DNA of 64,000 bases from Verrucomicrobiia bacterium (GTDB taxonomy: Bacteria > Verrucomicrobiota > Verrucomicrobiia > Limisphaerales > UBA8199), in NCBI GenBank assembly GCA_035946615.1, contig DASYZB010000048.1, positions 1 through 64,000 on the forward strand. The letters are read 5' to 3'. Both the position numbers and the translations under genes were made by a program. The notes under the pieces are model-generated. The model saw only the letters and a list, made by a program, of their open reading frames with translations. It was not told the origin of the DNA and made no database searches. This document shows positions 43,196 to 60,952 of the stretch, piece after piece (the first letter of the stretch is position 1; every line of letters begins with the position of its first letter).

Positions 43196-45037
43196 TCACC
43201 AGATTCTTAAGATCCGTTCACCAGGGCTGCTGTTTTCGAACGGGCCGGGGATGGGATGGGTTCTGTTCCGTTTGCTGCCAAAATAATCCGTGCCAATTTC
43301 CAGCGGTGAACGATCGGGATTGTCGTAGGGCAGTCCGGGAACCGTTGCCTTGCCGAGCAGCGCAGATGTCACCAAAGATGTCCTTGCTTGCTTTGGTTCA
43401 GGACCCCATTTGAGCTGAAGCAGGACCCGCCCGTTGTCTTGCAGAATTTTTGCGATAGGATTGAATTGGGCCAGTGAAAGGCAGTTCGATTCGTTGTTGT
43501 AACCTTGCGCGCCGTTGTAGAAGACATTCCCACCGGTGTGGAGCTGGAACTCGCCCTGGGTATAGGTCCTGAGGCCGAAATTCGGCTCAGACGGGCCCCG
43601 GCCAATGAAGATATTATTGTAAAAACGGTCGTCCCCACCCCGGACGTTGACCAGGCCCGAGATGGCCGTCGAGTGTGCGACGAGGAACGGTGTGGAACGG
43701 TTAGGCTCAGGCCGGTTCATGATTCTGCCGGCAAATAGATTATGCGCGTACGCCCCGCCCTCCGACATGTCCGAGAGGCTGGTAGCGGACAGGAACAGGT
43801 TGTTATCCACGACAAAAGGCCCGTGATCCACCTCGACGAACAGGTCTTCGGCGGCGTTGTCCTGAAAGAGGTTGCCCGAGACGCGCGTGCCTTGGGCCAT
43901 CCAATCCAGCCACAGACCCCGGCAGGTGTGGGAGATGTGATTGCCGCGGATAAGGGCATCTATCGCTGCGTGAAATTTAATACCGGCCATCTCGGCGCCG
44001 GAGAAGAGGCTGCGGACGTGAATCTCATGAATGTTGTTGCCCGTAATGGTGCTGAATGCAGCGCCCAGGCTTCCGACGATGCCCGCTTGTTCGCAGTGCG
44101 AGATATCGTTGTTGCGAATTAAATGATGGCCGATGGTTTCTTTGTTCCAGCCGTTTTGAAGGGCGCGTTCGATGGTTTTCACGTAGCCCTGCGCCGTGTT
44201 GGCCGATGTGTTGTCCCATTGATCGCCGTATTTTCCGAGCGAGATGCCGCAGCAGACCGAATAGCTGATTATATTGTGTTCGATAATCCAACCTTTGCTC
44301 CAATGCGTGCCAATCAATCCGATCTGCTCGGCTGTCGGGGGCGCCCAAGGTGTGGCAGCCTGGCTCAGTGTCAGACCGCGCACTGTGATAAAGTTGAGAC
44401 CGGGCTGGTCCGGGTAGAAGACGGCGCGTCGCACGTTGATTTCGACGAGCGCTTCGTTGGGATTACTAACTCCCTTGAACTGGGCCCACAGGGTGGTGTT
44501 CTCGTGGTCCACGCGTCCGAACCAGAGCGGTTGATTGCCGGGGGGCTTGAAGAGGTCCTGGAGGCTGGCGGCCTCGGTCAACCAATCGCCATTGAGATAA
44601 ACTGCACCCGTGTGATGCTCGCGGCTTTTTGGGTCGAACCAATCCCCATGAATGACGTCGCTATAAGGGTTAAAATCGCCAAAGAAGGAGTTTGGCAGCG
44701 TGACTTTCCAGACCTCTTCCTGAACCTTGACCCATTGTTTGATAACTTCCGAGCCTTTAATCTCAACGTGCTCGCCCGGGGCTGCCTGAAAAACGATTCG
44801 CTTGGCATCTGAGATGCCGCCGCGCGGCGGATTGACACGCTCGCGATAAACTCCCGCGTGTATGGTGACCACGTCCCCCGGTTGGGTCAACTGCGCGGCA
44901 CGCTGGATGGTGCGGAGCGGCGCTTTTTTAGTGCCGGGACTGGCGTCATTACCGTTCTGCGCAACATGCAACTGGGTAGCAGAGACGCCAGACGCAACGA
45001 GCCCGATCAGCAGGATGGAGTAAATACTTTGATTCAT
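43196..45037 (-). CDS. Secreted right-handed parallel beta-helix protein, carbohydrate-active
   Basis: A 613-residue exported protein with a signal peptide (about 1-20, ending GVSATQL). DUF1565-like opening: VAQNGNDASPGTKKAPLRTIQRAAQLTQPGDVVTIHAGVYRERV. Many right-handed beta-helix turns follow (NNDISHC, GNNIHEI, GNHISHT, GNLFQDN, DNNLFLS). Similar proteins include polysaccharide lyases and GH141-type enzymes, but no catalytic residues can be assigned here. As last gene of the operon it may take part in breaking down the same polysaccharide as the GH38 and GH2 enzymes. Confidence 0.82.
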   Translation of the reverse strand: MNQSIYSILLIGLVASGVSATQLHVAQNGNDASPGTKKAPLRTIQRAAQLTQPGDVVTIHAGVYRERVNPPRGGISDAKRIVFQAAPGEHVEIKGSEVIKQWVKVQEEVWKVTLPNSFFGDFNPYSDVIHGDWFDPKSREHHTGAVYLNGDWLTEAASLQDLFKPPGNQPLWFGRVDHENTTLWAQFKGVSNPNEALVEINVRRAVFYPDQPGLNFITVRGLTLSQAATPWAPPTAEQIGLIGTHWSKGWIIEHNIISYSVCCGISLGKYGDQWDNTSANTAQGYVKTIERALQNGWNKETIGHHLIRNNDISHCEQAGIVGSLGAAFSTITGNNIHEIHVRSLFSGAEMAGIKFHAAIDALIRGNHISHTCRGLWLDWMAQGTRVSGNLFQDNAAEDLFVEVDHGPFVVDNNLFLSATSLSDMSEGGAYAHNLFAGRIMNRPEPNRSTPFLVAHSTAISGLVNVRGGDDRFYNNIFIGRGPSEPNFGLRTYTQGEFQLHTGGNVFYNGAQGYNNESNCLSLAQFNPIAKILQDNGRVLLQLKWGPEPKQARTSLVTSALLGKATVPGLPYDNPDRSPLEIGTDYFGSKRNRTHPIPGPFENSSPGERILRIW

Positions 45038-45125
45038 TTACCAAAGCTTTGTTGGCCCAAGACGACTTCGAGTTATCGCGCTGCCACTGCATCCAGCGGC
45101 TCTTGTTTTCCACATCCAGAAAGCA

Positions 45126-48100
45126 TCAAATCTGTCCTTTAACTTTAACCATCAATTTCATTGTTAAAATCTGGTGCGGATGAATGTGGAACCGGACGCT
45201 GTTTTGGCCGATTTCCAATTTCTTTCCCGGCGTCTCGACGGCATTGGCTTCTCTGGCTGAAACAATGGTCATCCGGGGAAGTTTCAAGATTCCGTCAGCT
45301 TCCAATCCGGCTATTTCAAGGATGCGCACGACCAGTCCTTGGCCATCCTCGGCGCATTTAAACGCCGTCATTGCAAGGCCCGCCGGCGAAAGGGAAGCGA
45401 AACTGGCTTTCCCGGGCGGCAGGGTTCCGCGAAGACCGGGCAATTTGTCACTCTTTTTAAGCTCGGCCACTTCCAAGGGGCAACGCGTCTCGATGCCAAA
45501 CCGTTCGGCCTGGGCCGGGTCAAAGGGCGGCCCGCTGGTGATCACGTAACGATACGACAGTTCCGCGGAATTCTTGCCGGCCCACTTGGGCGACCAGTAG
45601 TTGTTCAGCGCGTAAGAAAAGACGACGGGAGTGTGGTTGGTGAACTGCGGGGCCCAGCGGCCACGATTGATGTCGCCCAGGCACACCAGCGGCGCGTCCA
45701 CCGCCGCAAGGTCCACCGAAGCACTGCCATCCTCGACATTCACCACACTTTGGATCGCAAACCAATCACTACAGCCGCCTTCGAGCAAGTCCTTGGCGGG
45801 ATTCACGAAACCGTCGGCAATATCGTAGCGGAACGTCGGCTTCGGCATTGCCCAAGGAAAGGCGAAATAACAAGCCTGCTTGGAATAGAGCAAGTCCACC
45901 TGAATGTGATCGCTTATTTCAATCTCCTTCACGTCGTCGGGCAGCAAAATATCCGTTGAGATCCGGGGCGTGTGCGTGGCCGAAGCGGTCATGCGAATTT
46001 TCGGGCCCCATGGGGTTTTTTCAATACCAATCAGAACCCCACGCTCCGCCGGGTGAATGACCAGTTGAGGCTCGGGCAGCCAGTGAAAGGGGTGCAGCAA
46101 CCGCGACTGTTCTCCGCCGCTGACGAAAAGATATTCATTGGCCAAGTACGGACTGGCGGAATCTACGAGCTCTCGTTCCAGTTGCTTGTCATAAATGCTC
46201 TTGATGGCGGCGTGCTCGGCATCCAGGGTGATCCTGTAAAAGCGATTCTCCACGACGTTACTGGCCGTTTGCTCGGCGGGACTGGACTGGAGGGTGGGGC
46301 CGTGCCCGAGATGATAGACCTTGTAACCGGCTGGTGGAACGTCCCGCGCCCAAAAGCGGATGGCCTGGTAGCCATTGGTCCCATCGAGCATCTCGTAGCC
46401 CACCGGATGTCCGGTGGCCACGTCGGTCAGGGTTGCCCCGTCATTCAATTGGAAACCGACCAGCCCGCTTCGCTGCCAACTCAGGGGATTGAACACAATC
46501 AGGTCTTGGCCTTCGGTTTGTATCTGGTCGGCGAGTTGGCTCATGCTGTGACGCATCCACTTGTCGATCTCCTCTGCTGCCCGGAGGGTGTAATTCTGTT
46601 TCTCATTGACCACGCCGATCACCTCGTCGCGAGCCGGTTGAGTCGCGGTGTTGCCCGTGCCGAAGTTATGTTCGCCATAGAGGAGCAAATTCCGCCAGAT
46701 GTCGTGATCCAATTCGCGCGCAAAACGCAGGTTGGGGTCCGTGGTGGTGGTGAGGGTGGCCAGCGTTTCCGCGCTGAGGGCGCGCGTTTGGTTGGCGCGG
46801 TCGCGCGCGGTGGCTGCGGCGAGAATGCCAAAGTTATCGGCCCAGTAAGCGCCCCCGGTGCCGCGCACCACCGGGAGGCTCTCGCCGTAATGTTTTTCAA
46901 TGTATTGAAAGAACTCCGAAAAGCGGCAGGTGATAAGCCTGGGATAGGCAAAGTGTGCGTTCCAGCGTTCCACGAAAGCCGCGTCATCATAGTCCGTGGG
47001 CAGGTTTTCGACCTGGGTGCCATAAACCAGCACGGCGTCGGGCTTGTAATCGGCCAGTTCGTAGGCGCGAAGGAACCGCGCTACACCGCCCCTGCCCGAT
47101 TCAATGGTGGGCGGCAGGCCGCAAAGGGCTTTGAGTTGATGGTAATGGGCGGAGAACCAAGCGAGCACGCGCTGCCCATCCGGCCCTTCCCACCAAAAAG
47201 GCGAGCGCACATTCCAATGTCCACTCGCGAGCAACGGGCCGCGGTCCTGGTTGCCACCATCGGCAAAGTACCGGATGCCAGCCGACGCCAGAATCGAAGG
47301 GATCGACCAGGAAACCGAAGGAACATCCGAAATGAGCGCGAAATCAAATGGAATGCCAAAGCGTTTTTGCAGCTCCCTGCCGTAGTAGAGATTGCGAATG
47401 TTTCCTTCGAGCGAGGGATACGCGGTGGCGGGACAATCGTAAAAGCCATTCACCGCAATTTGCCCCGCGCGGACGTGGGGCTCGATTCGGGCGATATCGC
47501 GAGGTGAACGCCAGTCCAGCCATTGGTCCATCACCCAGCCGCCATCGAAGTTGAAACGATAATCCGGATGCTGCTCCAAAACGTTCAGTAACTGATCTGC
47601 GTTGCGCGCATGCAACTCGGCTACCTTGGCGCGATAATCCGTGTAGCCGACGTCCATGTGCTCGTGCGGCGCGTAGTAAAGTTTCCACTTTCGCGCCGGG
47701 ACGAAATTCACAGCGAAAGTGTGTTCATTGGCGGCTGAATTATGGTCTGGCAAATTGTCCGACAACACAATTTGGGCGGTGCATGCCGGCTCTTGGCCGG
47801 GAACTAGCATCGTGTAGCGTGCTTCGCCAAATTCAGCGGGCTTTGGGACTTTGAATTGCGTGGTGAACCTGCCAATGGTCACGCGCGCCTCACCGCCGGG
47901 CCACTCGCTTGGAAAGCTGATGGTCAACGGGCATTCTTCCTCGACACTTTTCGCGGTCTTGCGATAGAAAACGGACGGCGTCAGGCGGACCTGCACCTTT
48001 GCATCCCATGTGGCATTCGGGTCGTGTGTGAGCGCGAGAGAATCGTAATAGAAGCCGGAATCGCCATCGCCGCCCACATTTTGGTTGGTGACGACTACCG

Positions 48101-48635
48101 GCGGGTCATCCACGCCCGCAAATGTGATGCGATTTTTCCCCGCGCGAAAACAGGACGCGGGCAGGGCAATCTTGCGCCCTGCCACCGAACGGATGGGATT
48201 GAATTCGTCGCTGATGGCGCCAAGGGCGAACATCGGCTCTGGCTCGAAGTAATAGCGGCCGCGCTGGCCGTTGACTTCCAATTCCAAGGCCGGCGTGCGC
48301 GGTTGGCGAAACAACAGATTCAAGTCCAAATAAAAAATCCCGCGCAGGGCGGGGGCTGGAAGATTGAAATCCAACGAATAGCGATAGAGATGTTGCCCAA
48401 AGGCGCCGTTGCCCGAAGCGGGTTGGAAATGCGGCCATTGCCCGGCTTCGTTCCCGGTTCCGATTTGCACCACGACTGAAGGGTGGGCGCGAATGTTCAT
48501 GGCCGTGTTGAATTCATGGTCAGAGCGATCCGGCTCGCCCAAATTCCAAATCCGCTCTTCGGTTGCGAACAAAGGCATCGCCGAGAGCAACACGACCGAG
48601 GCAAGCGCAGGGAATAATTTATATGGCGCGCGCAC
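45126..48635 (-). CDS. Glycoside hydrolase family 38-type alpha-mannosidase
   Basis: An 1169-residue exported enzyme (signal peptide about 1-25). An N-terminal beta-sandwich region (about 30-310) includes a carbohydrate-binding-like fold. The GH38 catalytic domain follows with H324-E-H-M-D328 (YYAPHEHMDVGYTDY, zinc ligands), a FNFDGGWVMDQWL segment and FALISDVPSVSWSI with the probable nucleophile Asp. The middle and C-terminal beta domains follow. GH38 enzymes hydrolyse alpha-mannosides with a bound zinc. It sits between the GH2 and beta-helix genes in the same direction. Confidence 0.9.
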   Translation of the reverse strand: MRAPYKLFPALASVVLLSAMPLFATEERIWNLGEPDRSDHEFNTAMNIRAHPSVVVQIGTGNEAGQWPHFQPASGNGAFGQHLYRYSLDFNLPAPALRGIFYLDLNLLFRQPRTPALELEVNGQRGRYYFEPEPMFALGAISDEFNPIRSVAGRKIALPASCFRAGKNRITFAGVDDPPVVVTNQNVGGDGDSGFYYDSLALTHDPNATWDAKVQVRLTPSVFYRKTAKSVEEECPLTISFPSEWPGGEARVTIGRFTTQFKVPKPAEFGEARYTMLVPGQEPACTAQIVLSDNLPDHNSAANEHTFAVNFVPARKWKLYYAPHEHMDVGYTDYRAKVAELHARNADQLLNVLEQHPDYRFNFDGGWVMDQWLDWRSPRDIARIEPHVRAGQIAVNGFYDCPATAYPSLEGNIRNLYYGRELQKRFGIPFDFALISDVPSVSWSIPSILASAGIRYFADGGNQDRGPLLASGHWNVRSPFWWEGPDGQRVLAWFSAHYHQLKALCGLPPTIESGRGGVARFLRAYELADYKPDAVLVYGTQVENLPTDYDDAAFVERWNAHFAYPRLITCRFSEFFQYIEKHYGESLPVVRGTGGAYWADNFGILAAATARDRANQTRALSAETLATLTTTTDPNLRFARELDHDIWRNLLLYGEHNFGTGNTATQPARDEVIGVVNEKQNYTLRAAEEIDKWMRHSMSQLADQIQTEGQDLIVFNPLSWQRSGLVGFQLNDGATLTDVATGHPVGYEMLDGTNGYQAIRFWARDVPPAGYKVYHLGHGPTLQSSPAEQTASNVVENRFYRITLDAEHAAIKSIYDKQLERELVDSASPYLANEYLFVSGGEQSRLLHPFHWLPEPQLVIHPAERGVLIGIEKTPWGPKIRMTASATHTPRISTDILLPDDVKEIEISDHIQVDLLYSKQACYFAFPWAMPKPTFRYDIADGFVNPAKDLLEGGCSDWFAIQSVVNVEDGSASVDLAAVDAPLVCLGDINRGRWAPQFTNHTPVVFSYALNNYWSPKWAGKNSAELSYRYVITSGPPFDPAQAERFGIETRCPLEVAELKKSDKLPGLRGTLPPGKASFASLSPAGLAMTAFKCAEDGQGLVVRILEIAGLEADGILKLPRMTIVSAREANAVETPGKKLEIGQNSVRFHIHPHQILTMKLMVKVKGQI

Positions 48636-48693
48636 AATGGGATTTCGAGTGAGGGCTAATCAACACGAATTTTCTTCTTTTCCTCACGCTGAG

Positions 48694-51237
48694 CTATGAG
48701 AAGACCTCAAGTTCGCGAATTGCATGGCCCCATTGCGTCGCTCGCTTGACGCACCAGATGCGGACATGCCGCGCCCTGAGGGGAGCAAGTTTAATTTCGC
48801 TGACACCGCCTTTGCAGTTTTTCTCCGTGAACACGCCAATCCAGTTCTGGCCGTCAGACGAGACTTGGACCTCAAATTCCCTCGAGTAGGCCCGTTCCCA
48901 AGTGATGCGAACACGGCTAATCGTGGAAAGCTCGCCCAAGTCCACCGCGAGCCAGGCAGGATCAGCAAAGGTCGAAGACCAGTAGGTGGCTGTATCGCCG
49001 TCCACCGCGTTGGCCGGCAAGTATTCTTTGGCTTGACTCGAGGACGCTGAGGCCGGTTTGCGATAAGCCAAGCCCAACGCCCTCGGGCCGATCGTCTCCA
49101 ATTCGCGCACACTATGGACGGTTTGACCATCCACGCCGCGCAATGCGGCATCGAGCACATATTGGCCCGGCGATTTGGGCCAAGTCACCTCGAACTCTAT
49201 TGTCGCCTGGCCGAAAGCTCCAACACTTGCTTCCTGCTTCATCTCGAAAATCGAGACTGCCTCCTGAGCCTTGTAGAGCCGCAGACTGACAGAGCCGCCC
49301 CAAGGCCGGTCGAGATCGTCGATAAGGATGATCGGCACGCGCGATTGGGTCTTGCAAATGTTCCTGTCCTTCCAGAAATCCACCATCAGCCCCACGGGAG
49401 CGAACGCGTCGCGTACGTAACGGTAAAACTCAGGCTCCCATTGGAGCTCCTCGACGCCGCCCGGTTTCCAATGGTCGCAGGTCTGCCCGTCCGGCCTCGA
49501 ATAACCCAGCATGGTGAAATGAAGCACTGCGGCCGCTTTACGATGAGCACGCCAAAATTCGGTGTCCGCGGCCAGCCAGGTGGCCTGCATATGGAAGCGT
49601 TGCGCGGCGGTGGCCCGTTCGCCCAGCACAACGCGGTACAGCTCGCGCGTTAGAGTCGTCGGTGTGCCGTCCCGGTTGACCCAATGCCAGCCGTATTCAT
49701 TGATAATGACGGCGTGTTTGCCATCGTTATGAACTTGATTGCCTTGGGGGACAGGGTCGGTCGTAGCCAGGTCAGATAGCCGGAAATTAGGATTAAAGTG
49801 GTAGGGATGAGACTCGAATACGTCGCCTGGCTCCATCGGATCAGAGTAACTATTGTCCCAGGGCCGATGAGACAGGTCGAGGTCCCGGACCTTTTTGATG
49901 GCCAGGCCCGTTTCGGGACTGGCCGTTTCGTTGCTGGCGTCCCACACGACGACGCAGGGATGGTTCCACCGCTCTCTCATCCACTCGGCATATTCGAGGG
50001 CCAGTTCGCCGCTCTTCAATTCCTTGGGCCAGGTGCTCCAGCCCGAACCGCCATACCAGACCGGAAACTCGTCCTGGATGAGGATGCCAAGCTCGTCGGC
50101 GGCGTCATACCACGCCTCGGGCGGAAAACCGATGCAGCAACGGAGGCTATTCCAGTGCATCTGCTTAACCCGCTGAAGGAGCAGCCGCACCCACGCGTTG
50201 CGCCAGGGCAAGTCCTTGCACTGGCTGTCCTCGAAAAACCGGTAAAGCGTGATGTTACTCCCGCGCATGAAATACGGTTTGCCATTCAGCCTCGCATGGC
50301 CTGTTGCAGGATCGAACCTGAGTTCCCGCATCCCGAAGCGGGTCTGGAATCGATCAGCGCCGTTTTCGGCCTCCAGCGTGTAGAGGAATGGCTCCTCCGG
50401 CGACCATAGGTGGCAGCCAGCGACGGGAATACGCACATCAACGGTTGTCTCCGCGCCTTTCTCAATGCTCAAGGACTCGGTGCTCAGGCGTCCAGCTTCA
50501 CGGCCCGATTTGGCCTCGCGCACGGTGAAATTAACCACGGTGCGTACCGCCTCCCCATCGTTGCGCAGGACCGCTTGCACGCGCACGGCGCCCGTGGCGA
50601 TGTCCGGCGCAGCCTGCACCTGCGTGAAGTGGGGCGTGCCGGAGAGGATCAGCTCCACGGAATCGAAGATGCCGGGAATGTACCGCTCTTTCTCGTAGTC
50701 GAATCCGTTTGGAAAGCGTGGTCCCACCGCATCGCGATCCGCCCCGACCCGGATCAGCAACTCGTTCTGACCGGCTTTCAAGGCAGCCTTCGCGTCGAAA
50801 CAGCCCGCGGTGAAGCTTGGCAAATGATCACCAAGCACTTGGCCATTCAGGATCACTCGCGTGCCGAACATGGCCTTGCGGACCTTCAGCAAAGCAACGG
50901 CGCGCAGCGGTTGATCGAGTCGGAATGTGCGCCGGTACCAAAACGCGTCACGCTTGGGGTCTTTCTGGTTAATTTTGTTCCGCTCGGTGACCTTCGGCCC
51001 TGGTGGGTTGGCAAACTCCGGGGTGGCCAGCGCGACCAAGCCAGGCACCGGCACTGTGCGTTCAAAGGAGACGGGAACCTGGTCCATTTTTCCTTCGGCA
51101 ATCTGCCAGGTTCCATCGAGCGAAAGGACGTTGCGCAGCCGTTCTGGCGCGCTATTCACAGCCTGCAACCCAAGGCATAAGAGGGCCACGGAGGCCAGGC
51201 CGGTCAGCCCTCGGGATGGGTGCCGTTGTGTTCTCAT
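48694..51237 (-). CDS. Glycoside hydrolase family 2 enzyme with C-terminal F5/8 type C domain
   Basis: An 847-residue exported enzyme (signal about 1-30). A jelly-roll GH2N domain (RNVLSLDGTWQIAEG), an Ig-like domain and a TIM barrel carry acid/base Glu437 (VVWDASNETASP) and nucleophile Glu514 (VIINEYGWHWVN). A C-terminal discoidin-like (CBM32-type) domain spans about 720-847 (AVDGDTATYWSSTFADPAWLAVDLGE). GH2 includes beta-galactosidases and beta-mannosidases; the mannose-oriented neighbours suggest beta-mannosidase, but this is inference. ATG 51237 overlaps the stop of the previous gene (TAATG). An earlier in-frame ATG at 51336 lies inside that gene. Confidence 0.9.
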   Translation of the reverse strand: MRTQRHPSRGLTGLASVALLCLGLQAVNSAPERLRNVLSLDGTWQIAEGKMDQVPVSFERTVPVPGLVALATPEFANPPGPKVTERNKINQKDPKRDAFWYRRTFRLDQPLRAVALLKVRKAMFGTRVILNGQVLGDHLPSFTAGCFDAKAALKAGQNELLIRVGADRDAVGPRFPNGFDYEKERYIPGIFDSVELILSGTPHFTQVQAAPDIATGAVRVQAVLRNDGEAVRTVVNFTVREAKSGREAGRLSTESLSIEKGAETTVDVRIPVAGCHLWSPEEPFLYTLEAENGADRFQTRFGMRELRFDPATGHARLNGKPYFMRGSNITLYRFFEDSQCKDLPWRNAWVRLLLQRVKQMHWNSLRCCIGFPPEAWYDAADELGILIQDEFPVWYGGSGWSTWPKELKSGELALEYAEWMRERWNHPCVVVWDASNETASPETGLAIKKVRDLDLSHRPWDNSYSDPMEPGDVFESHPYHFNPNFRLSDLATTDPVPQGNQVHNDGKHAVIINEYGWHWVNRDGTPTTLTRELYRVVLGERATAAQRFHMQATWLAADTEFWRAHRKAAAVLHFTMLGYSRPDGQTCDHWKPGGVEELQWEPEFYRYVRDAFAPVGLMVDFWKDRNICKTQSRVPIILIDDLDRPWGGSVSLRLYKAQEAVSIFEMKQEASVGAFGQATIEFEVTWPKSPGQYVLDAALRGVDGQTVHSVRELETIGPRALGLAYRKPASASSSQAKEYLPANAVDGDTATYWSSTFADPAWLAVDLGELSTISRVRITWERAYSREFEVQVSSDGQNWIGVFTEKNCKGGVSEIKLAPLRARHVRIWCVKRATQWGHAIRELEVFS

Positions 51238-51620
51238 TAGGCCCTTGCGTAATCGTCCGAGTACCGGGTGATGTCCTCCTGTTGCCAATTGCCAAAGGCT
51301 ACCTCCAAGACGCGCACCGGTTCGGCCCCAACACAAGACAGACGGTGCTTTTCCCCGACGGCAATCCAGATTTCATCGCCGGCGCGATAATCTCTCTCGG
51401 CGTCGCCGACCTGCACTCGCGCGCCATCGTCCATGATAATCCATAACTCGGCGCGACCGGTGTGGGATTGCAGGCTGAGCCGCTGGCCGGGGCTTACCGT
51501 CATCAAGCTCACGGTGCAGTCCTGGTTAAGAGCATATTGTTTGAAACAGCCCCAAGGACGCTCGACAAGACCGACTCGATGTTTTTCGTCGGGAATAGGC
51601 TTTGAGACATGGTTCTTCAT
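51237..51620 (-). CDS. Mannose-6-phosphate isomerase-like cupin
   Basis: A 127-residue single-domain cupin, like the C-terminal half of type II phosphomannose isomerases. Evidence: VERPWGCFKQY, QRLSLQSHTGRAELWIIMDDGARVQVGD, then GDEIWIAVGEKHRLSCVG. Metal ligands should be the His of QSHTGRAE, the Glu of RAELW and the His of EKHRL. ATG 51620 overlaps the upstream cupin isomerase stop by ATGA. Its probable role is isomerisation of a hexose phosphate (mannose-6-P to fructose-6-P) or binding of a related sugar phosphate. Confidence 0.82.
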   Translation of the reverse strand: MKNHVSKPIPDEKHRVGLVERPWGCFKQYALNQDCTVSLMTVSPGQRLSLQSHTGRAELWIIMDDGARVQVGDAERDYRAGDEIWIAVGEKHRLSCVGAEPVRVLEVAFGNWQQEDITRYSDDYARA

Positions 51621-52189
51621 AAGACGCCTTTTCTTTCGACCATGATGGGCCGGCCATCGTGCTCGATGACAACGCACCGAAAATTCCTGCTGGCAATCGC
51701 ATCGTAGTCATGCCCGGCTTTTGCGGGATAAATGCCCAGATAGCTCAATGGCGCCTGGCCCGTATTCATCGTGCGATGCGCAGTTTTGCCTGGGACATAC
51801 ACCACTTGGTTGGAGCGCAAAGGCGCCATTTGGCTCTCGCCGGTGGCCTCATCCTCCAACAGCATCACGCCTTGGCCGCTCAGGCCAATATAAATCTCCG
51901 CCGCCTCGCGCCACGCATGCAGGTGGCCCTTGGTCATGAAGTACTCGTCCCCCACCCTTCCGGGCATAATCAGGCCAACGGCATAATTCAAATCACCCGG
52001 GCCACTCCCCAGCTCAGCCGCGGCAACGCTGTACAGCACAGGATTGCCCAGCGCCAGCGTGCGCTCATAAGCGGCCAGGTCAACGAAGCAGCCCCGCAAG
52101 TCGCTTAAATGGCGCTCGACTTTGACCAAACCCGAAATCGTTCCGTTTGCGGGATCAAAGCTGGAAAGGATTTGCTTGGAGTTGAACAT
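51617..52189 (-). CDS. Cupin-type phosphoglucose isomerase (archaeal-type PGI)
   Basis: A 190-residue enzyme of the PF06560 family, best known from Thermococcales and Archaeoglobus. The metal ligands fit the archaeal enzyme: His89, His91, Glu98 and His138 (TKGHLHAWREAAEIYIGL, then TAHRT). This family interconverts glucose-6-P and fructose-6-P using a metal ion, unrelated in fold to the usual bacterial Pgi. It begins 6 bases after the ROK kinase stop and overlaps the next cupin by ATGA, so the three phosphate-sugar genes form one translational block. Confidence 0.9.
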   Translation of the reverse strand: MFNSKQILSSFDPANGTISGLVKVERHLSDLRGCFVDLAAYERTLALGNPVLYSVAAAELGSGPGDLNYAVGLIMPGRVGDEYFMTKGHLHAWREAAEIYIGLSGQGVMLLEDEATGESQMAPLRSNQVVYVPGKTAHRTMNTGQAPLSYLGIYPAKAGHDYDAIASRNFRCVVIEHDGRPIMVERKGVL

Positions 52190-52195
52190 TCGTAG

Positions 52196-53206
52196 TTACT
52201 GAGGCGTTCGGGTCGGATGGTTAGGTGCTCCTGCGAGGGTACAGTCGGACTGGCGCTCCGGCGTGAGGCCCAATTGCTCTTGGACCAACCATTCGGCGGC
52301 AACGAGCCCTGCCAGGTCGCCCAACTGGGACGCCACCACTCGCACCTTGCCCCAGGTGGTGTGCGCATGGCGTGAAACGTAGCTCGCCACCGCAGGCAGG
52401 ATGACATCCGCGCTGGCCATGATGCCGCCGCCCAAGATCAACATCTCCGGATCGTAAGCGTGGATAAGATTGACCGCCAGCGCACTCCATACCTGAATGC
52501 TGTGATCGCGCAAAGCGACGGCGCACTCATCGCCAGAGGCGGAGTGCTTAAAGATCAACTCGTAATCGAGCGTTGTGGCATTGCGCATGGAGCTGTGCTC
52601 GAAATCGCGCAAACCGCTTGCCATCTCCAGGAGAAACGCCGTGGAGGCTTCGGCCTCCGCGCAGCCGATATTGCCGCAATTGCAGGCGCGTCCACCGTAG
52701 CGCACAGTCGAATGGCCGCAGAGCACACCGGCCTGCCCGTGTTTTCCTCGGAGTACATTGCCCTCAATTATAGCGGCCGTGCCGAGACCGGTTCCAAGGG
52801 TAATCATCGCCAGATTATCCACGCCCCGGCCCGCCCCAGCGCGCCATTCGCCGATCAGCGCCATGCGCGCATCGTTTTCAATTGCCAATGGCAGCCCCAA
52901 TTCCTTCAATGCCCAAGACCGCAGGTCTATATGAGGCGCGTCGGTAAACTTTCCGTATTCGGCCAGCACGCGGCCACTGCCCGTATCCACCAGACTTGGA
53001 AACGCAACGCTGATGCCGCCGCAATTCGCCAGCGAGATGTTCTGTTTCTCTAAAAGGCGCAGCCAGACAGCCTTGAGCATCGGCAGTTGCGGCCTCAGGC
53101 CCTGCTGCGACTTCGCCGGCTTCAGTGCCTGCGCCAACACCTGGGCCTGACGCACCAGGCCAATCTTCAACCGCGTTCCGCCCAAATCGCATGCCAGCAC
53201 GGTCAT
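52196..53206 (-). CDS. ROK-family sugar kinase
   Basis: A 336-residue kinase. The ATP-binding DLGGT (7-11) precedes IENDARMALIGEW, LGTGLGTAAII and a ROK zinc site ACNCGNIGCAE. ROK proteins phosphorylate glucose, mannose, fructose or N-acetyl sugars, and this one lacks the N-terminal HTH of ROK repressors. A good ribosome binding site (AAAGGTGA) precedes ATG 53206, and the gene heads the leftward operon. In context a mannose or glucose kinase is likely, giving hexose-6-phosphate to the following isomerase genes. Confidence 0.9.
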   Translation of the reverse strand: MTVLACDLGGTRLKIGLVRQAQVLAQALKPAKSQQGLRPQLPMLKAVWLRLLEKQNISLANCGGISVAFPSLVDTGSGRVLAEYGKFTDAPHIDLRSWALKELGLPLAIENDARMALIGEWRAGAGRGVDNLAMITLGTGLGTAAIIEGNVLRGKHGQAGVLCGHSTVRYGGRACNCGNIGCAEAEASTAFLLEMASGLRDFEHSSMRNATTLDYELIFKHSASGDECAVALRDHSIQVWSALAVNLIHAYDPEMLILGGGIMASADVILPAVASYVSRHAHTTWGKVRVVASQLGDLAGLVAAEWLVQEQLGLTPERQSDCTLAGAPNHPTRTPQ

Positions 53207-53463: not shown

Positions 53464-55845
53464 CTACTCGCCGGCGGCAGCCTTGAATCTCTTTATCCAT
53501 TCCTCCGCGCTATGCCCTTCGGAAAGTGAGGTGATGTTGAATCGCGCGAGGTCGGCGATGAACGAATTGAGTTTGGTTCGATACGCGCCGCGTTGGTCCG
53601 GAGCGGTGTTAGAGTCGGGAATGTGTGTCGCAAGGTAGATATAACGAAGACCCATGCGGGTTTCCTGAACGCGATTACGGATTGTTTCGTTTTCTGCGTC
53701 CGCTTCAGCGCGCTCGACGAGTGCGTTAGCGGATTTGAGCAAGTCCGCGCTGAATAGCGAAGAGGTTGGCGGATCATAAAGATGAAGGTGAACGCCGGGT
53801 TGCTGGAGGCGCTCATGAAACAGCCGTTGATAGGCGTACATCTCCGCGCCGGCTTTCCCGAAGTAGCCGTTGCAAAAATCCCGCACCAAAGACCAGACGT
53901 CCTGACGCGGATTCCAGAAGAGGTGCGCCATCACCCAAGTATGCATCGGCTGGAAATCGCAACCAGAGGCCGAATCGCCCTCGCAATACATTCCAGAAAC
54001 GCCATTGTCCCGATAGTATTCCATGTCAGCGCCGATTTCATCCCAATCTGGATAAGGCTGGAGATAATGGGCGAAATTCACGACGTAATGCCAGATTTGA
54101 AGATGGCCGGGGGCGACCTTTTCCCAATCGAGCAATGCCTGGTTGGAGGCTTTGTTTTGAGGATCAGCAGCGAGAGAATGTCCGTCGCAAGCATAAATGG
54201 GAGCAAGGCAGACGAGGACGTTATCAGCAGGAGCGATGGCTTCGGGCGTTGGGGCTTTTTGGGTGTACTGATACGCGAGGGTTTCGACCCAAATTTTTCG
54301 ATCCGGGAACGAGGCCTGCACTGCGGCGGCGACTTTGTTGACGAAATCGAGCAATGTTCCGCCCGGGGAACCAAATTTTGCATCAGCGGCCTTGCAGGCA
54401 TCGCACTGGCAATTGCCATGCGTGGCGTCATTGGGTGAAAGGCCGAGTGTCAGTTCTTGTGGACTGGCTTTCGCTTCGGCAATTAGCGCGGCTACAACCA
54501 ATTTGAAAACGTCGGGATTGCTGAGACAGAGTTGAGAATCGGGCGAGGATTTTCGTTTGCCCTTAACCAAGCTGAAATATTCCGGATGGCCGGCGAAATA
54601 ACGGCTGGGCGGGACGAGGTCGTAGAAATTCTCCGCACCGTTGAAGAGCCTGTTGATGCCGCCGAGGTCCGGTTCGTCAGGAACACTCATGCCGTTGAGT
54701 TTGAGGTGCGCATCCCATTGGGCGTGGCCGGGAATGTGAACGATTGTTTCATCGGTGTTGCGGTAGCTAAAGGCGGGGATTTGAGTTTCACTCAGGCTGG
54801 CGAGGCGGATGGTGTCGCGATGGGGAAAAAAGGTTGCATCGGGCGCGTACCAGCGGGCGCCGAGTTTGTCTTCGACGAAACTATAGACCGCGTACAGCGT
54901 GCCGCGATCACCGTGCCCTGCCAAAAGAAGATTGCGCCCCGATGAACGAATGACGAATGCTTCGTCCGTTAAGTCATCCAGGCGCACTTTGTTGAATGCG
55001 GACGGAAGCCAGGGGCATGCGCCGACGAAAATTGATGGGCCGTGGCGTTTCTCGGTTAGGACTGGAAAATCTGCGCCGGAGATTTCCTTAAGATCATCGG
55101 AAAGTTCCTGCGCCGCGTGTTTAACGGTGGTGGTGGCGTCGGGCGCGACGATGATTGAGTATTTTGTTTGGCCGTGTTCCGCCAAGTTTAAGCCTGCGGT
55201 TTCGACCAATTCTTTGAGGACCAGTTTCCGATATTGCACTTTTGTATATGCGCCGCCGTGGATTTGCAGCGCGATGATTCCGTGGCGCGGGATTGACGCG
55301 TCGGGTTCCATGTAATCGACCGTTTTAACGCCATTCAACCACAATTGAATATGCGAACCTTCGGCGCGAATCCGGTAATCGTTCCAGGCGCCGGGTTTGA
55401 GGGCTTTTTCGAGGATGTCCCTCGGAACTTCGACGAGGTTTTTGTTCCGGCGGCTTTCGTCATATAGGTTTCCATCGGTAGCGGCGCCAAGATCGGCCTG
55501 GTATCCTGAAACTTCGAAATTGTTCGGCACGCGCTGGGACCAAAACTGAACACCGCCATTCACGAAGCCGTTGGAGCCTTCGATTTTGTATTGCAAGCGG
55601 AGCTCAAAATCTCCGAATTCCTTGGTTGTGGCTAGAAATTCGTTGTGGGGTTGTTTTCTATCTAATTCGCCGCCGACAATCGCGCCGCGCTCGACGCGCC
55701 AGTTCGTGATGTTGCCCTCCCAGCCGTTCAGCGATTTGCCGTCAAAAATCGGGACCGCCTCAGCCGCGTGAAGTTCAAGAGATTGAAGAATCCCGAAGGT
55801 GAGAATGGAGACGAGTGAAAACAGCATTTTTTCTTTTGTTTTCAT
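53464..55845 (-). CDS. Secreted DUF1080-DUF4838 fusion protein
   Basis: A 793-residue exported protein with signal peptide (about 1-28). DUF1080 (3-keto-disaccharide hydrolase-like, PF06439) occupies about 30-210 (FDGKSLNGWEG, FVNGGVQFWSQRVPNNFEVSGYQADLG). DUF4838, about 215-790, follows and resembles alpha-glucuronidase-like GH enzymes with LSPNDATHGNCQCDACK and LDWEKVAPGHLQIWHYVVNF motifs. DUF4838 proteins are common in polysaccharide-using Bacteroidetes and Verrucomicrobia. ATG 55845 begins MKTKEKML, the signal. It may be independently transcribed, as 257 bases lie between it and the ROK operon. Confidence 0.85.
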   Translation of the reverse strand: MKTKEKMLFSLVSILTFGILQSLELHAAEAVPIFDGKSLNGWEGNITNWRVERGAIVGGELDRKQPHNEFLATTKEFGDFELRLQYKIEGSNGFVNGGVQFWSQRVPNNFEVSGYQADLGAATDGNLYDESRRNKNLVEVPRDILEKALKPGAWNDYRIRAEGSHIQLWLNGVKTVDYMEPDASIPRHGIIALQIHGGAYTKVQYRKLVLKELVETAGLNLAEHGQTKYSIIVAPDATTTVKHAAQELSDDLKEISGADFPVLTEKRHGPSIFVGACPWLPSAFNKVRLDDLTDEAFVIRSSGRNLLLAGHGDRGTLYAVYSFVEDKLGARWYAPDATFFPHRDTIRLASLSETQIPAFSYRNTDETIVHIPGHAQWDAHLKLNGMSVPDEPDLGGINRLFNGAENFYDLVPPSRYFAGHPEYFSLVKGKRKSSPDSQLCLSNPDVFKLVVAALIAEAKASPQELTLGLSPNDATHGNCQCDACKAADAKFGSPGGTLLDFVNKVAAAVQASFPDRKIWVETLAYQYTQKAPTPEAIAPADNVLVCLAPIYACDGHSLAADPQNKASNQALLDWEKVAPGHLQIWHYVVNFAHYLQPYPDWDEIGADMEYYRDNGVSGMYCEGDSASGCDFQPMHTWVMAHLFWNPRQDVWSLVRDFCNGYFGKAGAEMYAYQRLFHERLQQPGVHLHLYDPPTSSLFSADLLKSANALVERAEADAENETIRNRVQETRMGLRYIYLATHIPDSNTAPDQRGAYRTKLNSFIADLARFNITSLSEGHSAEEWIKRFKAAAGE

Positions 55846-57071: not shown

Positions 57072-57155
57072 GCGGGGCAGACGATAGCTAAAAGCGGGCC
57101 AAAGCGCAATGGTTGGACTTTTGTTTGATTGCGTCCTTTGGCCTGCGGAGAGATA

Positions 57156-60100
57156 ATGGAGACGCGATTCTCCGCGAGAATCCCTCAACGGATGATGTTC
57201 AGGCGAAGGTCGGTATTAGTCGTCGCCGTGGTGCTGGCGATGTTGCCCTTGTGCTGGGGTCAGAAGGGCTCGAATTGGCGCGTGTACCGGGTTACCGATG
57301 GGCTGCCGGAGTCGGCCTGCGTCTCGGTGACTGTCTCGGCGCTGGGCAAAGTCGTTGCCCGCCATTACAACCTTCCTCTGCTGACGGTCCTGGACGGTTA
57401 CGAGGTGAGCGAGATCCCGGCGCCCGAGATGGTTCAAAGCCGCGCTTACCAAAGCCCCGGCGGACAACTTTGGTCGGTTGTCCCCGGCGGCCTTCAGGAG
57501 TACCGCGACGGTAACTGGGCATTTTACCCGGTTCCCGAGATTGCCGCGCAAACTAACCGGCCAATGGCCGGCGTCATCGACCCGGTCCCTTTATGCCCCG
57601 TTCGCCATGGGCTGGTGATTCTACTGCTGTCGGACCGGCTGCTCGAACTCAATTGTGACCGCCCCGAGCAACCCCGGACGCGAGTTTTGCGCTGGGCGCG
57701 GGACACCTCTTTGCGACGGTTCCTGGGTCTGGCCCCGGCGCACGATGGCGGGCTGTGGGTCTCCGGGGCAAGCGGTCTGGCTAGAATCCCGGGACCGCTG
57801 CGAATGCTCACGCCGACGACCGAGTGGCACGAGTACCCGGTCCCTGAGAATGAGCGGCTGCACGACCTGCTCAATCCTCGGGAAGATGTGGATGGGGGTG
57901 TCGTGGCGATGGCCGAATCATCCACGAATCGTCAAAAACTGCTCGTCTATTTTGATTCTCAACGTTGGCTGGTCAGTCCTCCTGTGTTGGAGCGCCTGCG
58001 GCAGGCCTGGCGCGGCCCCGACCAGAACGGTTGGGCTACCACCATGAACGCTCTCTGGCAATGGGAGCCCGGCAGCGCTGAGTTAACTGAGAACGATGAA
58101 ATCTTTGCCCGGCAGTACTTTGATGTGGCCATCGAGCCCAGCGGGGCTTTCTGGTTAGCCACCTCAGACGGCTTGTTTCGCTATGCGCAACTGAGCTGGG
58201 GCGGTCCACGGTCTGTGCGCAAGTTGGCCGGCTCTGTGCATTGCCTGGCGTCGGATACGCCTGACCGTTTGTGGTTCGTCGCAGGGGGCAAACTGTATTC
58301 TCTGAGCGAGCAGGAGCTGAAGGAATTCTCCTTGCCGGTTCTAAACAGGTTCCGGCTTCAACCCCGGGCCATATTCGCATTGGGCAATGGCACCCTGGTG
58401 CTGGACGCCGGCGACGCCGAGTCCGGGATGCGCGATCAACTTTTCGGATTCCAACCGCTCGAAGGCCGTTTTTATCCTGTGCCGCAGGGAACTCCTACCC
58501 GGCATTTCAGGGCTTTAGGATTGTTGCGCGACGGCACTCTCTGCGTCTCGGCTTTGGACACTAAGGGCAATTGCGCGCTGGAAAAGTACGATGGCCTCGC
58601 TTTTGAGCCGCTCGCCAGCCCTCCTCCCGCCCAACTTGGCACTAACCTTTCAACCGCTTTGGCCGCGCAGAACGGTGATTTATGGATTAGCGGCGAGTTT
58701 GGGACGGCGTATCTTCATGAAAAGTTGTGGCGGGTTTTTGCATCCGCTGACAAAACGACCCCGGCGGCTGTCGTGGGGTTTGTTGAGATGCCCGAGGGAA
58801 AGGTCTGGTGCGCCACACAAGAGCAGATTTGGGAATTCGACGGTCATGCCTGGGCGGTTGTGCGCGGGGATTTTGATCGGATCAACGCCTTTGTGCGCAC
58901 GCGCGATGGCACGATCTGGGTTGCCTCGAACAATGGCCTGCACCGCTATTTTCAGGGTGGCTGGATAGAAAACGGAATCGAAGAGGGGCTTCCCACCACC
59001 ACCGTGCGGGAGGTCTTCGAGCAGGGCGACCAGCTTTGGGCCGCCACCACGCACGGCTTGCGCCTTTACAATCCAAAAGCCGACCGTGACCCGCCAGAGG
59101 CCTTCGTTCAGAAGCTGGGCGGGGAGAAGAACAGCTCCGCCGAAGGCAGCACCATTACCATGCTCTTTAGCGGCATCGATAAATGGAAGTTCACCCCACC
59201 CGAGCGGCTCCTTTACTCCTACCGCCTGGACGAACGAGAATGGTCTCCCTTCCAGGAGGCTACCCGCGTCTCGTTCGCCGAACTCCCGGCCGGCATGCAT
59301 TACTTTCAGGTCCGCGCCATGGACCGCAATTGCAACATCGGCAAACCGGCGCGGCTCGATTTTACCGTGGTCCTACCGTGGTACAAAGAGGGGCGGCTGG
59401 TGGCCATATCGGTAGCCGGCCTGGTCGGCGCGCTCTTCTTTGCGGGCCTTGCGTTCAACCGGCACCGGCGCCTTTTGCACAGCTACGCGGATATCGAGAA
59501 GAAGGTCAATGAGCGGACAGCCCAGCTCGACCTGGCCAATCGCCAATTGTTACAAAGCCAAAAAATGACCGCCCTGGGAACGCTTGCTGCAGGCATTGCG
59601 CATGATTTCAACAATATTCTCTCGATTGTCAAAGGCTCCGCCCAAATCATAGAAGACAACCTCGATAACCCGGACAAGGTCCGCACGCGCGCCGACCGCA
59701 TCAAGCTGGTAGTCGAGCAGGGGGCCGGCATGGTCAAAGCCATGTTGGGATTCAGCCGCGAGTCCGGGCAACAAGCCGAGCCTTGCGAAATCAACGCGGT
59801 GGTCGAGGACACCCTCAAATTGCTCGGTGACCGCTTTCTGCGCGAAGTCCAGGTACGCTTCGAGCCGGCGGCTGGTCTGCCTGCGGTATCCGCCTCGAAG
59901 GACATTATCCAGCAAATCCTGCTTAACTTCATCTTTAACGCGGCTGAGGCGCAGGCCCAAAACAAGCAAGTGGTTATCCGCACGTCCCCATTGGAGAAGG
60001 CCCCTGCCGACGCGGTCCTGGCGCCATCGACCGCCTCGCGCTATGTCTGGATTGAGGTGAAAGATTACGGCTGCGGCATTCCCTCGGAAAACCTGACCCG

Positions 60101-60305
60101 AATTTTCGAGCCGTTTTTTACTACCAAAGCCCTTTCGACCCACCGCGGCACCGGCTTGGGCCTGTCGATGGCTTATGAACTGGCGCGCAAATTGGGGGCT
60201 GGTCTTGCCGTGAAATCCCGGTTGGACCATGGCAGCACCTTTAGCCTCATCCTGCCGGTGAATGAAAAAACACCGGAGCCGCCTCGCCAATCCCCCTTAT
60301 TATGA
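57156..60305 (+). CDS. Propeller-type sensor histidine kinase (Y_Y_Y sensor)
   Basis: A 1049-residue inner-membrane kinase. A signal/anchor segment (about 22-40) is followed by two-component-regulator propeller repeats in the periplasm (about 45-640), a Y_Y_Y domain (about 660-745) and a membrane helix (about 748-768). The kinase core has phospho-acceptor His816 (LAAGIAHDFNNILS), N-box Asn928, G1 DYGCGI (970-975), F-box FEPFFTTK and G2 GTGLGLSMAYEL. Propeller/Y_Y_Y kinases are typical sensors of sugars released from polysaccharides. ATG 57156 has a good site (ggagagata). Confidence 0.9.
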   Translation: METRFSARIPQRMMFRRRSVLVVAVVLAMLPLCWGQKGSNWRVYRVTDGLPESACVSVTVSALGKVVARHYNLPLLTVLDGYEVSEIPAPEMVQSRAYQSPGGQLWSVVPGGLQEYRDGNWAFYPVPEIAAQTNRPMAGVIDPVPLCPVRHGLVILLLSDRLLELNCDRPEQPRTRVLRWARDTSLRRFLGLAPAHDGGLWVSGASGLARIPGPLRMLTPTTEWHEYPVPENERLHDLLNPREDVDGGVVAMAESSTNRQKLLVYFDSQRWLVSPPVLERLRQAWRGPDQNGWATTMNALWQWEPGSAELTENDEIFARQYFDVAIEPSGAFWLATSDGLFRYAQLSWGGPRSVRKLAGSVHCLASDTPDRLWFVAGGKLYSLSEQELKEFSLPVLNRFRLQPRAIFALGNGTLVLDAGDAESGMRDQLFGFQPLEGRFYPVPQGTPTRHFRALGLLRDGTLCVSALDTKGNCALEKYDGLAFEPLASPPPAQLGTNLSTALAAQNGDLWISGEFGTAYLHEKLWRVFASADKTTPAAVVGFVEMPEGKVWCATQEQIWEFDGHAWAVVRGDFDRINAFVRTRDGTIWVASNNGLHRYFQGGWIENGIEEGLPTTTVREVFEQGDQLWAATTHGLRLYNPKADRDPPEAFVQKLGGEKNSSAEGSTITMLFSGIDKWKFTPPERLLYSYRLDEREWSPFQEATRVSFAELPAGMHYFQVRAMDRNCNIGKPARLDFTVVLPWYKEGRLVAISVAGLVGALFFAGLAFNRHRRLLHSYADIEKKVNERTAQLDLANRQLLQSQKMTALGTLAAGIAHDFNNILSIVKGSAQIIEDNLDNPDKVRTRADRIKLVVEQGAGMVKAMLGFSRESGQQAEPCEINAVVEDTLKLLGDRFLREVQVRFEPAAGLPAVSASKDIIQQILLNFIFNAAEAQAQNKQVVIRTSPLEKAPADAVLAPSTASRYVWIEVKDYGCGIPSENLTRIFEPFFTTKALSTHRGTGLGLSMAYELARKLGAGLAVKSRLDHGSTFSLILPVNEKTPEPPRQSPLL

Positions 60306-60952
60306 ATCCTCCACTCATTCTCATCATCGAAGACGACGATCTCCAATACGAGATTTACGAAGAGGCCCTCACTAAATATCAACTCCTTCGCGTCCGAAGC
60401 GGAAGCGAGGCCTTGGCTCTCATCCCAATCCGCCCACCCGACGTGCTCATCCTGGACCATGTCCTGGATAAAGGCGAACTGGGGCTGGATTTTCTTCCCG
60501 AATTCAAGGAACTGTTGCCGTTTGTCCCGATTATTGTCGTCTCAGGCGCACTCGAAGTTCACGAGCAATTGCAGGCACTGCAAGGACCGCGCCGGGCGCA
60601 TTACTGTCTGACCAAGCCGGTCGATATCCGCGTCCTTCAGCGCACCGTCCAGACCGCCCTGAAGGAATGTGGCGAGCACGAAGTGGTGCGCCAATTCGAG
60701 GCCCTCGAACGGGTCCATCGCGTCGATGCCCTCGATCTCTTTAGCCGCTCGACAGACCGGTTGAACCGGCAGAATCATATCCGCGAGAGCCTGGCCAAAT
60801 CCCGCGCGCGTCCGAACATCTCCGCCTTGGCGCGCCAGTTCGGCGTGGCGCGCCGGACCATCATTCGCGACCTGCAGGAACTCATTCGGCGCGGCCAGCT
60901 CAAGCCCGAAGTCTATCCGGAGTGGGAGAATCCGCCTGAAGACAACGCCTGA
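60302..60952 (+). CDS. Response regulator with C-terminal helix-turn-helix
   Basis: A 216-residue regulator. The receiver domain has acidic Glu10/Asp11/Asp12, phosphoacceptor Asp52 (DVLILDHVL), Ser81 and Lys105 (CLTKPVD). A DeoR-like HTH follows at about 165-205 (NISALARQFGVARRTIIRDLQELIRRGQL). The start overlaps the kinase stop by ATGA, so the two form a cotranslated pair. Most propeller kinases are hybrids with AraC-type effector domains; here the regulator is a separate protein with a different HTH. Confidence 0.9.
   Translation: MNPPLILIIEDDDLQYEIYEEALTKYQLLRVRSGSEALALIPIRPPDVLILDHVLDKGELGLDFLPEFKELLPFVPIIVVSGALEVHEQLQALQGPRRAHYCLTKPVDIRVLQRTVQTALKECGEHEVVRQFEALERVHRVDALDLFSRSTDRLNRQNHIRESLAKSRARPNISALARQFGVARRTIIRDLQELIRRGQLKPEVYPEWENPPEDNA

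Follow-up and report, generated by a model that had tools for sequence, protein, structure and literature searches.

A predicted hexose-use cassette, split between two contigs, with its kinase and cupin genes beside three secreted glycosidase genes in a Verrucomicrobiia bacterium

The window, which is the whole analysed stretch of 64,000 nucleotides (contig DASYZB010000048.1, here C48) from a Verrucomicrobiia bacterium, carries the kinase and cupin half of a predicted hexose-use cassette. This cassette recurs in other genomes and is split in the window genome. A long isomerase-like protein, ManA590, and a sugar porter of the major facilitator superfamily (MFS) were found on contig C17. On balance, we favour a reading in which the split cassette serves three secreted glycosidases: a hexose, most likely mannose, would pass through the C17 porter, the ROK kinase and ManA590, and the two cupins would be accessory. 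In outline this is an ordinary glycan-use operon. The part that stands out is a pair of remodelled cupins tied to ManA590. The literature searched did not describe the cassette.

Organization of the locus

The preliminary description placed six genes in one direction at 43196-53206, and all six open reading frames do lie on the minus strand. The ROK sugar kinase (52196-53206, -) matches PF00480 with 145 bits and contains both the DLGGT phosphate motif and the zinc motif CNCGNIGC (CxCGxxGC). Its start is the ATG at 53206, which agrees with the end given previously and with the conserved start of its relatives. The kinase is followed by a GPI-family cupin (51617-52189, -; PF06560, 95 bits) and a standalone cupin of the PMI C-terminal type (51237-51620, -; MannoseP_isomer, PF01050, 73 bits). 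Next come a GH2 enzyme with an F5/8 C domain (48694-51237, -; Pfam), a GH38 enzyme with a GTG start (45126-48635, -; PF01074, 84 bits) and a GH120 enzyme (43196-45037, -). Signal-like hydrophobic N-terminal stretches were present in the GH2, GH38 and GH120 proteins and absent from the kinase and both cupins.

Three joins had been called overlapping or nearly so, and they are: a 6-bp gap separates the ROK stop from the GPI-cupin start, the two cupins overlap by 4 nt (ATGA), and the PMI-type cupin overlaps GH2 by 1 nt (TAATG). Because of these tight joins, the ROK, cupin, cupin and GH2 genes very likely form one predicted operon. The gaps from GH2 to GH38 and from GH38 to GH120 are 58 and 88 bp. 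Upstream, at a distance of 257 bp from the start of ROK, is a seventh gene of the same strand (53464-55845, -). It encodes a secreted fusion of DUF1080 (3-keto-disaccharide hydrolase), GH67N and DUF4838 (Pfam), and may belong to the locus. In the promoter scan, shuffled sequences yielded more sites than the real sequence. A sensor kinase with a two-component propeller (Reg_prop, Y_Y_Y, HisKA, HATPase) is encoded at 57129-60952 on the plus strand, and the gene immediately behind it, of 216 aa, probably encodes its response regulator. Glycan loci are often under the control of sensors of this kind, and these two genes may regulate the operon.

The best NCBIfam model for the kinase was ROK_glcA_fam, below its cut-off, and no subfamily model reached cut-off. 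Sequence comparison would place it in the neighbourhood of glucokinase, allose kinase and ManNAc kinase. Its orthologues in the cassettes of G520, L014, G452 and G110 are 60-69% identical. In some cassettes, a BadF-type kinase replaces ROK.

The secreted hydrolases

The protein at 43196-45037 had been described as a beta-helix protein. It does have a Pfam Beta_helix match, but its identity is that of a GH120 (beta-xylosidase family) enzyme: it matches XylC (3vst) over nearly the full length with 510 bits, Asp382 and Glu405 (3vst numbering) are both conserved, and Pfam adds the GH120 insertion domain (PF21258). The GH2 protein is closer to other enzymes than to beta-mannosidases. Its nearest solved relatives are beta-glucuronidases and beta-galactosidases, and the best beta-glucuronidase scored 79 bits against 37 bits for the beta-mannosidase among the matches listed. 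Its acid/base and nucleophile glutamates are present and are shared with an orthologue in the cassette of G520 (46% identity over 726 aa). The GH38 protein is divergent, but its alignment to 3lvt shows that it keeps the metal site and the nucleophile Asp. The view that all the hydrolases are mannosidases is not supported, given the GH120 enzyme and the glucuronidase/galactosidase-like GH2. Taken together, the three families make a mixed glycan a likelier target than a pure mannan, and the enzymes would cut this heteroglycan outside the cytoplasm.

Distribution of the cassette

In relatives, the run consists of a regulator (GntR or DeoR-like), an MFS porter, a kinase, ManA590, two cupins and sometimes GH2, in varying order. 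G520 has the full single-strand run GntR-MFS-ROK-ManA590-cupin-cupin-GH2, and the cassette was also found in L014, G110, G295, G309, G335 and others. Beyond Verrucomicrobiota, it forms a compact unit in Chloroflexota and Deinococcota, and in related form in Bacteroidota. This gene order gives good support to the earlier proposal that cleavage, phosphorylation and isomerisation are coupled.

The cassette-clade cupin occurs in 13 of 388 Verrucomicrobiota genomes, and all 13 have ManA590, which has like genes in 32 of the 388 overall. None of the four Verrucomicrobiota genomes with an ordinary cupin PGI has ManA590. The HTG-type cupin (at least 61% identity) occurs in 9 of the 388 genomes, all of them among the 13. 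The cupin and ManA590 genes are adjacent in 12 of the 13, and the Fisher values for their association, which ignore shared ancestry, are below 1e-14. In other lineages, the cupin-bearing cassettes adjoin GH2, sulfatase-like genes or unknown proteins, not alpha-mannosidases, which counts against the favoured reading, as does the BadF-type kinase of some cassettes.

Several other genes were seen near cassettes. A family of 735-833 aa in Mucilaginibacter and Caldilineaceae (L071:14302-16803, L015:12317-14524) has no Pfam match; it resembles alpha/alpha-toroid glycosidases, with a poor structure model (pLDDT 40). In some Verrucomicrobia, uroporphyrinogen-decarboxylase-like genes, named by sequence look and mutual similarity only, lie in or beside the cassette (L094:2980-4089, L014:2622-5066).

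ManA590, the porter and the released sugar

ManA590 is a long class I PMI-like protein of 590 aa that matches no Pfam or NCBIfam model. In the window genome, it is not adjacent to the cupins; it lies on the other contig (G000:C17:36408-38165), right behind an MFS sugar porter (Sugar_tr, 405 bits). C17 and C48 were assigned to one genome by binning only, and C17 matches the window in base composition and tetranucleotides (correlation 0.97). No transporter is present in the locus, and the preliminary description expected uptake from elsewhere. The C17 porter fits this expectation: it is a candidate for the missing uptake gene and stands next to the missing isomerase. The predicted structure of ManA590 has a pLDDT of 91, and its top 17 PDB matches are all mannose-6-phosphate isomerases. 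It appears to be a better isomerase candidate than the cupins. However, at the Arg of the class I PMI motif TYRxxDW (TYRVYDW), the ManA590 family carries Lys, so that even the substrate of ManA590 is not certain. In the same phylum, the partners of a more distant ManA590 group (L126-L135, approximately 29-36% identity) are a different ROK protein, a conserved regulator and, in some cases, a GH42-like enzyme.

Both GH92 and GH38 are families of alpha-mannosidases. Where ManA590 occurs without cupins, it has GH92 genes on its flanks in G195 (three of them), G229 and G471, as recognized by Pfam, and a pair of GH38 genes in G241; in G425 and G376, a GH92-like neighbour is recognized by sequence similarity only. 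ManA590 beside GH92 or GH38 can serve as a marker for mannose use. In Streptococcus pneumoniae, a GH38-ROK operon is known, and ManA belongs to the same N-glycan regulon (PMC7075642). These neighbours, the position of the window GH38 after the kinase and cupins, and the pneumococcal pairing make mannose our best guess for the released sugar, and we hold it to be reasonably probable. The earlier choice of mannose thus stays plausible, but GH120 and GH2 do not point to it. The guess is also held back by the Lys/Arg change and by the ordinary PGI and ordinary ManA (C109) of the window genome, which could do the same chemistry. In the favoured route, the freed hexose, most likely mannose, would enter via the C17 porter. 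ROK, judged by its family, would make the hexose-6-phosphate. ManA590 would convert this to fructose-6-phosphate, as suggested by its fold, zinc-site residues and alpha-mannosidase neighbours, and the cupin pair would act as an accessory on the same sugar route.

Alternatively, the cassette could serve a different hexose from mannose, such as a modified one or an uncommon aldohexose, with the kinase, ManA590 and both cupins as successive steps to fructose-6-phosphate. Three isomerase-like proteins exceed what mannose needs, active-site positions are altered in all three, and the genome already has the ordinary enzymes; moreover, GH2, the glycosidase with the closest link to the cupin cassette, is not of the beta-mannosidase type. 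Nevertheless, cupin-less ManA590 with the same Lys sits with alpha-mannosidases of GH92 and GH38 in several families, and a GH38 gene is in the window operon. We regard this explanation as rather unlikely.

The two cupins

The GPI-family cupin was said to have all four archaeal metal ligands, and it has them (H89, H91, E98 and H138). It matches the cupin PGIs of the PDB at 1e-44. The cupin PGI of Pyrococcus furiosus (Pfu) binds its metal with His88, His90, Glu97 and His136 (PMC6627849). The window cupin had also been called archaeal-type and unusual in bacteria, and this is not supported. A single scan across bacterial and archaeal genomes found 157 confirmed cupin GPI relatives, and the best 80 of the 157 were mostly bacterial and from many phyla, so that such homologues cannot be called rare in bacteria. 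A tree of 101 sequences puts the window cupin in a separate clade of 21 (support 99, stem 0.71), with the archaeal PGIs on the other side of the tree among ordinary bacterial cupin PGIs. At the position of Pfu Thr71 (72 in the window cupin), all 21 clade members have Gly, whereas all 78 other locus sequences have Ser or Thr. Thr71 presumably touches the substrate phosphate in the Pyrococcus structures. Position 169 is Asn in the clade and Gly in the other 78 without exception, and positions 96, 136, 150 and 152 differ almost completely. Pfu Tyr133 was rejected as a specificity site, being in a peripheral loop where mutation is tolerated (PMC6627849). The sulfoquinovose isomerase SqvD was likewise rejected as a relative, since it belongs to the FucI family (PMC9594981). 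Ordinary-type cupin PGIs of Verrucomicrobiota adjoin other genes: in L099 and L163, the cupin PGI, an FGGY-like kinase and a protein of approximately 315 aa form a different recurring context (L099:1119-4158, L163:6610-9775).

The PMI-type cupin has HTG where the metal motif is HxH, and the second His is absent. Nearly all cassette PMI-type cupins have LSLQSHTGRAELW, with the variants HAG, HEN and HEK, whereas the phylum's own bifunctional GMP/PMI proteins have H-x-H-R at that site and the canonical L158-L161 have HxH. The protein, of 127 aa, has no GDP-mannose pyrophosphorylase domain. The loss of one metal ligand makes a plain PMI function doubtful. The two cupins are one reading frame of 326 aa (L096:9217-10197) in G004, a member of the family to which the window genome belongs, and this suggests that they act together. 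A 92-codon stretch after the fused cupins (L096:10318-10593) is 62% identical to the window GH2 and is apparently a GH2 remnant.

Both cupins are probably an accessory pair on the same sugar route, not a plain PGI and PMI. Family models name the clade proteins glucose-6-phosphate isomerase, but the active-site changes and the strict tie to ManA590 suggest another role. We tentatively propose, at rather less than even chances, that the GPI-family cupin of the clade, working as a pair with the HTG cupin, is a new sugar isomerase or epimerase no longer acting on glucose-6-phosphate. It may take an unphosphorylated hexose or another phosphosugar, and would provide several phyla with a route devoted to a single released sugar. 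The D-lyxose/mannose isomerases are a precedent only, as cupins acting on free sugars (PMC8378251).

In the preliminary description, ROK supplies the hexose-6-phosphate, and the PGI and PMI steps fall to the two cupins alone. The Pfam names agree with this, and so do the metal ligands of the GPI cupin, all four of which are present. The Gly at the Thr71 position, the missing second His and the presence of ManA590 in every sampled genome of the phylum with the cassette cupin do not, nor do the ordinary PGI and ManA of the genome, and we consider it improbable. It is very improbable that the ROK-cupin genes beside GH38 and GH120 were left over by chance from an incomplete cassette, with the cupins out of use. 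The split and the fused cupins of G004, with only approximately 92 GH2 codons left, might imply this, but the window reading frames are all intact with tight joins and the genome keeps both halves.

Comparison with known systems

The GPI-family cupin shares with PfPGI (PF06560) the fold family, the metal ligands and the near-invariant T86, Y100 and Y162, and differs from it by its separate clade, its Gly and the differently fixed positions 96, 136, 150, 152 and 169. Unlike ordinary bacterial cupin PGIs, its clade is tied to ManA590. The PMI-type cupin resembles the C-terminal domain of type II PMIs (PF01050, TIGR01479) in its RPWG, LSLQ-H, RAE-W and C-terminal motifs, but it is standalone, has HTG for HxH, lacks the nucleotidyltransferase domain and in G004 forms one frame with the GPI cupin. 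In its C-terminal half, ManA590 has the fold of class I mannose-6-phosphate isomerases (ManA; 1qwr, Salmonella PMI), with TM 0.83 to 1qwr by target length, and it shares their zinc-site residues, but carries approximately 240 extra N-terminal residues and Lys for the motif Arg. The GH120 enzyme equals XylC (3vst) in its nearly full-length match and both catalytic residues, and differs in sharing an operon with a mannosidase-family enzyme. The gh125-gh38-ROK-gh20 N-glycan operon of S. pneumoniae likewise has GH38 and ROK in one operon, and mannose is converted to fructose-6-phosphate by ManA. The pneumococcal system differs in having neither cupins nor ManA590, in its set of hydrolases, and in taking up oligosaccharides by an ABC transporter.
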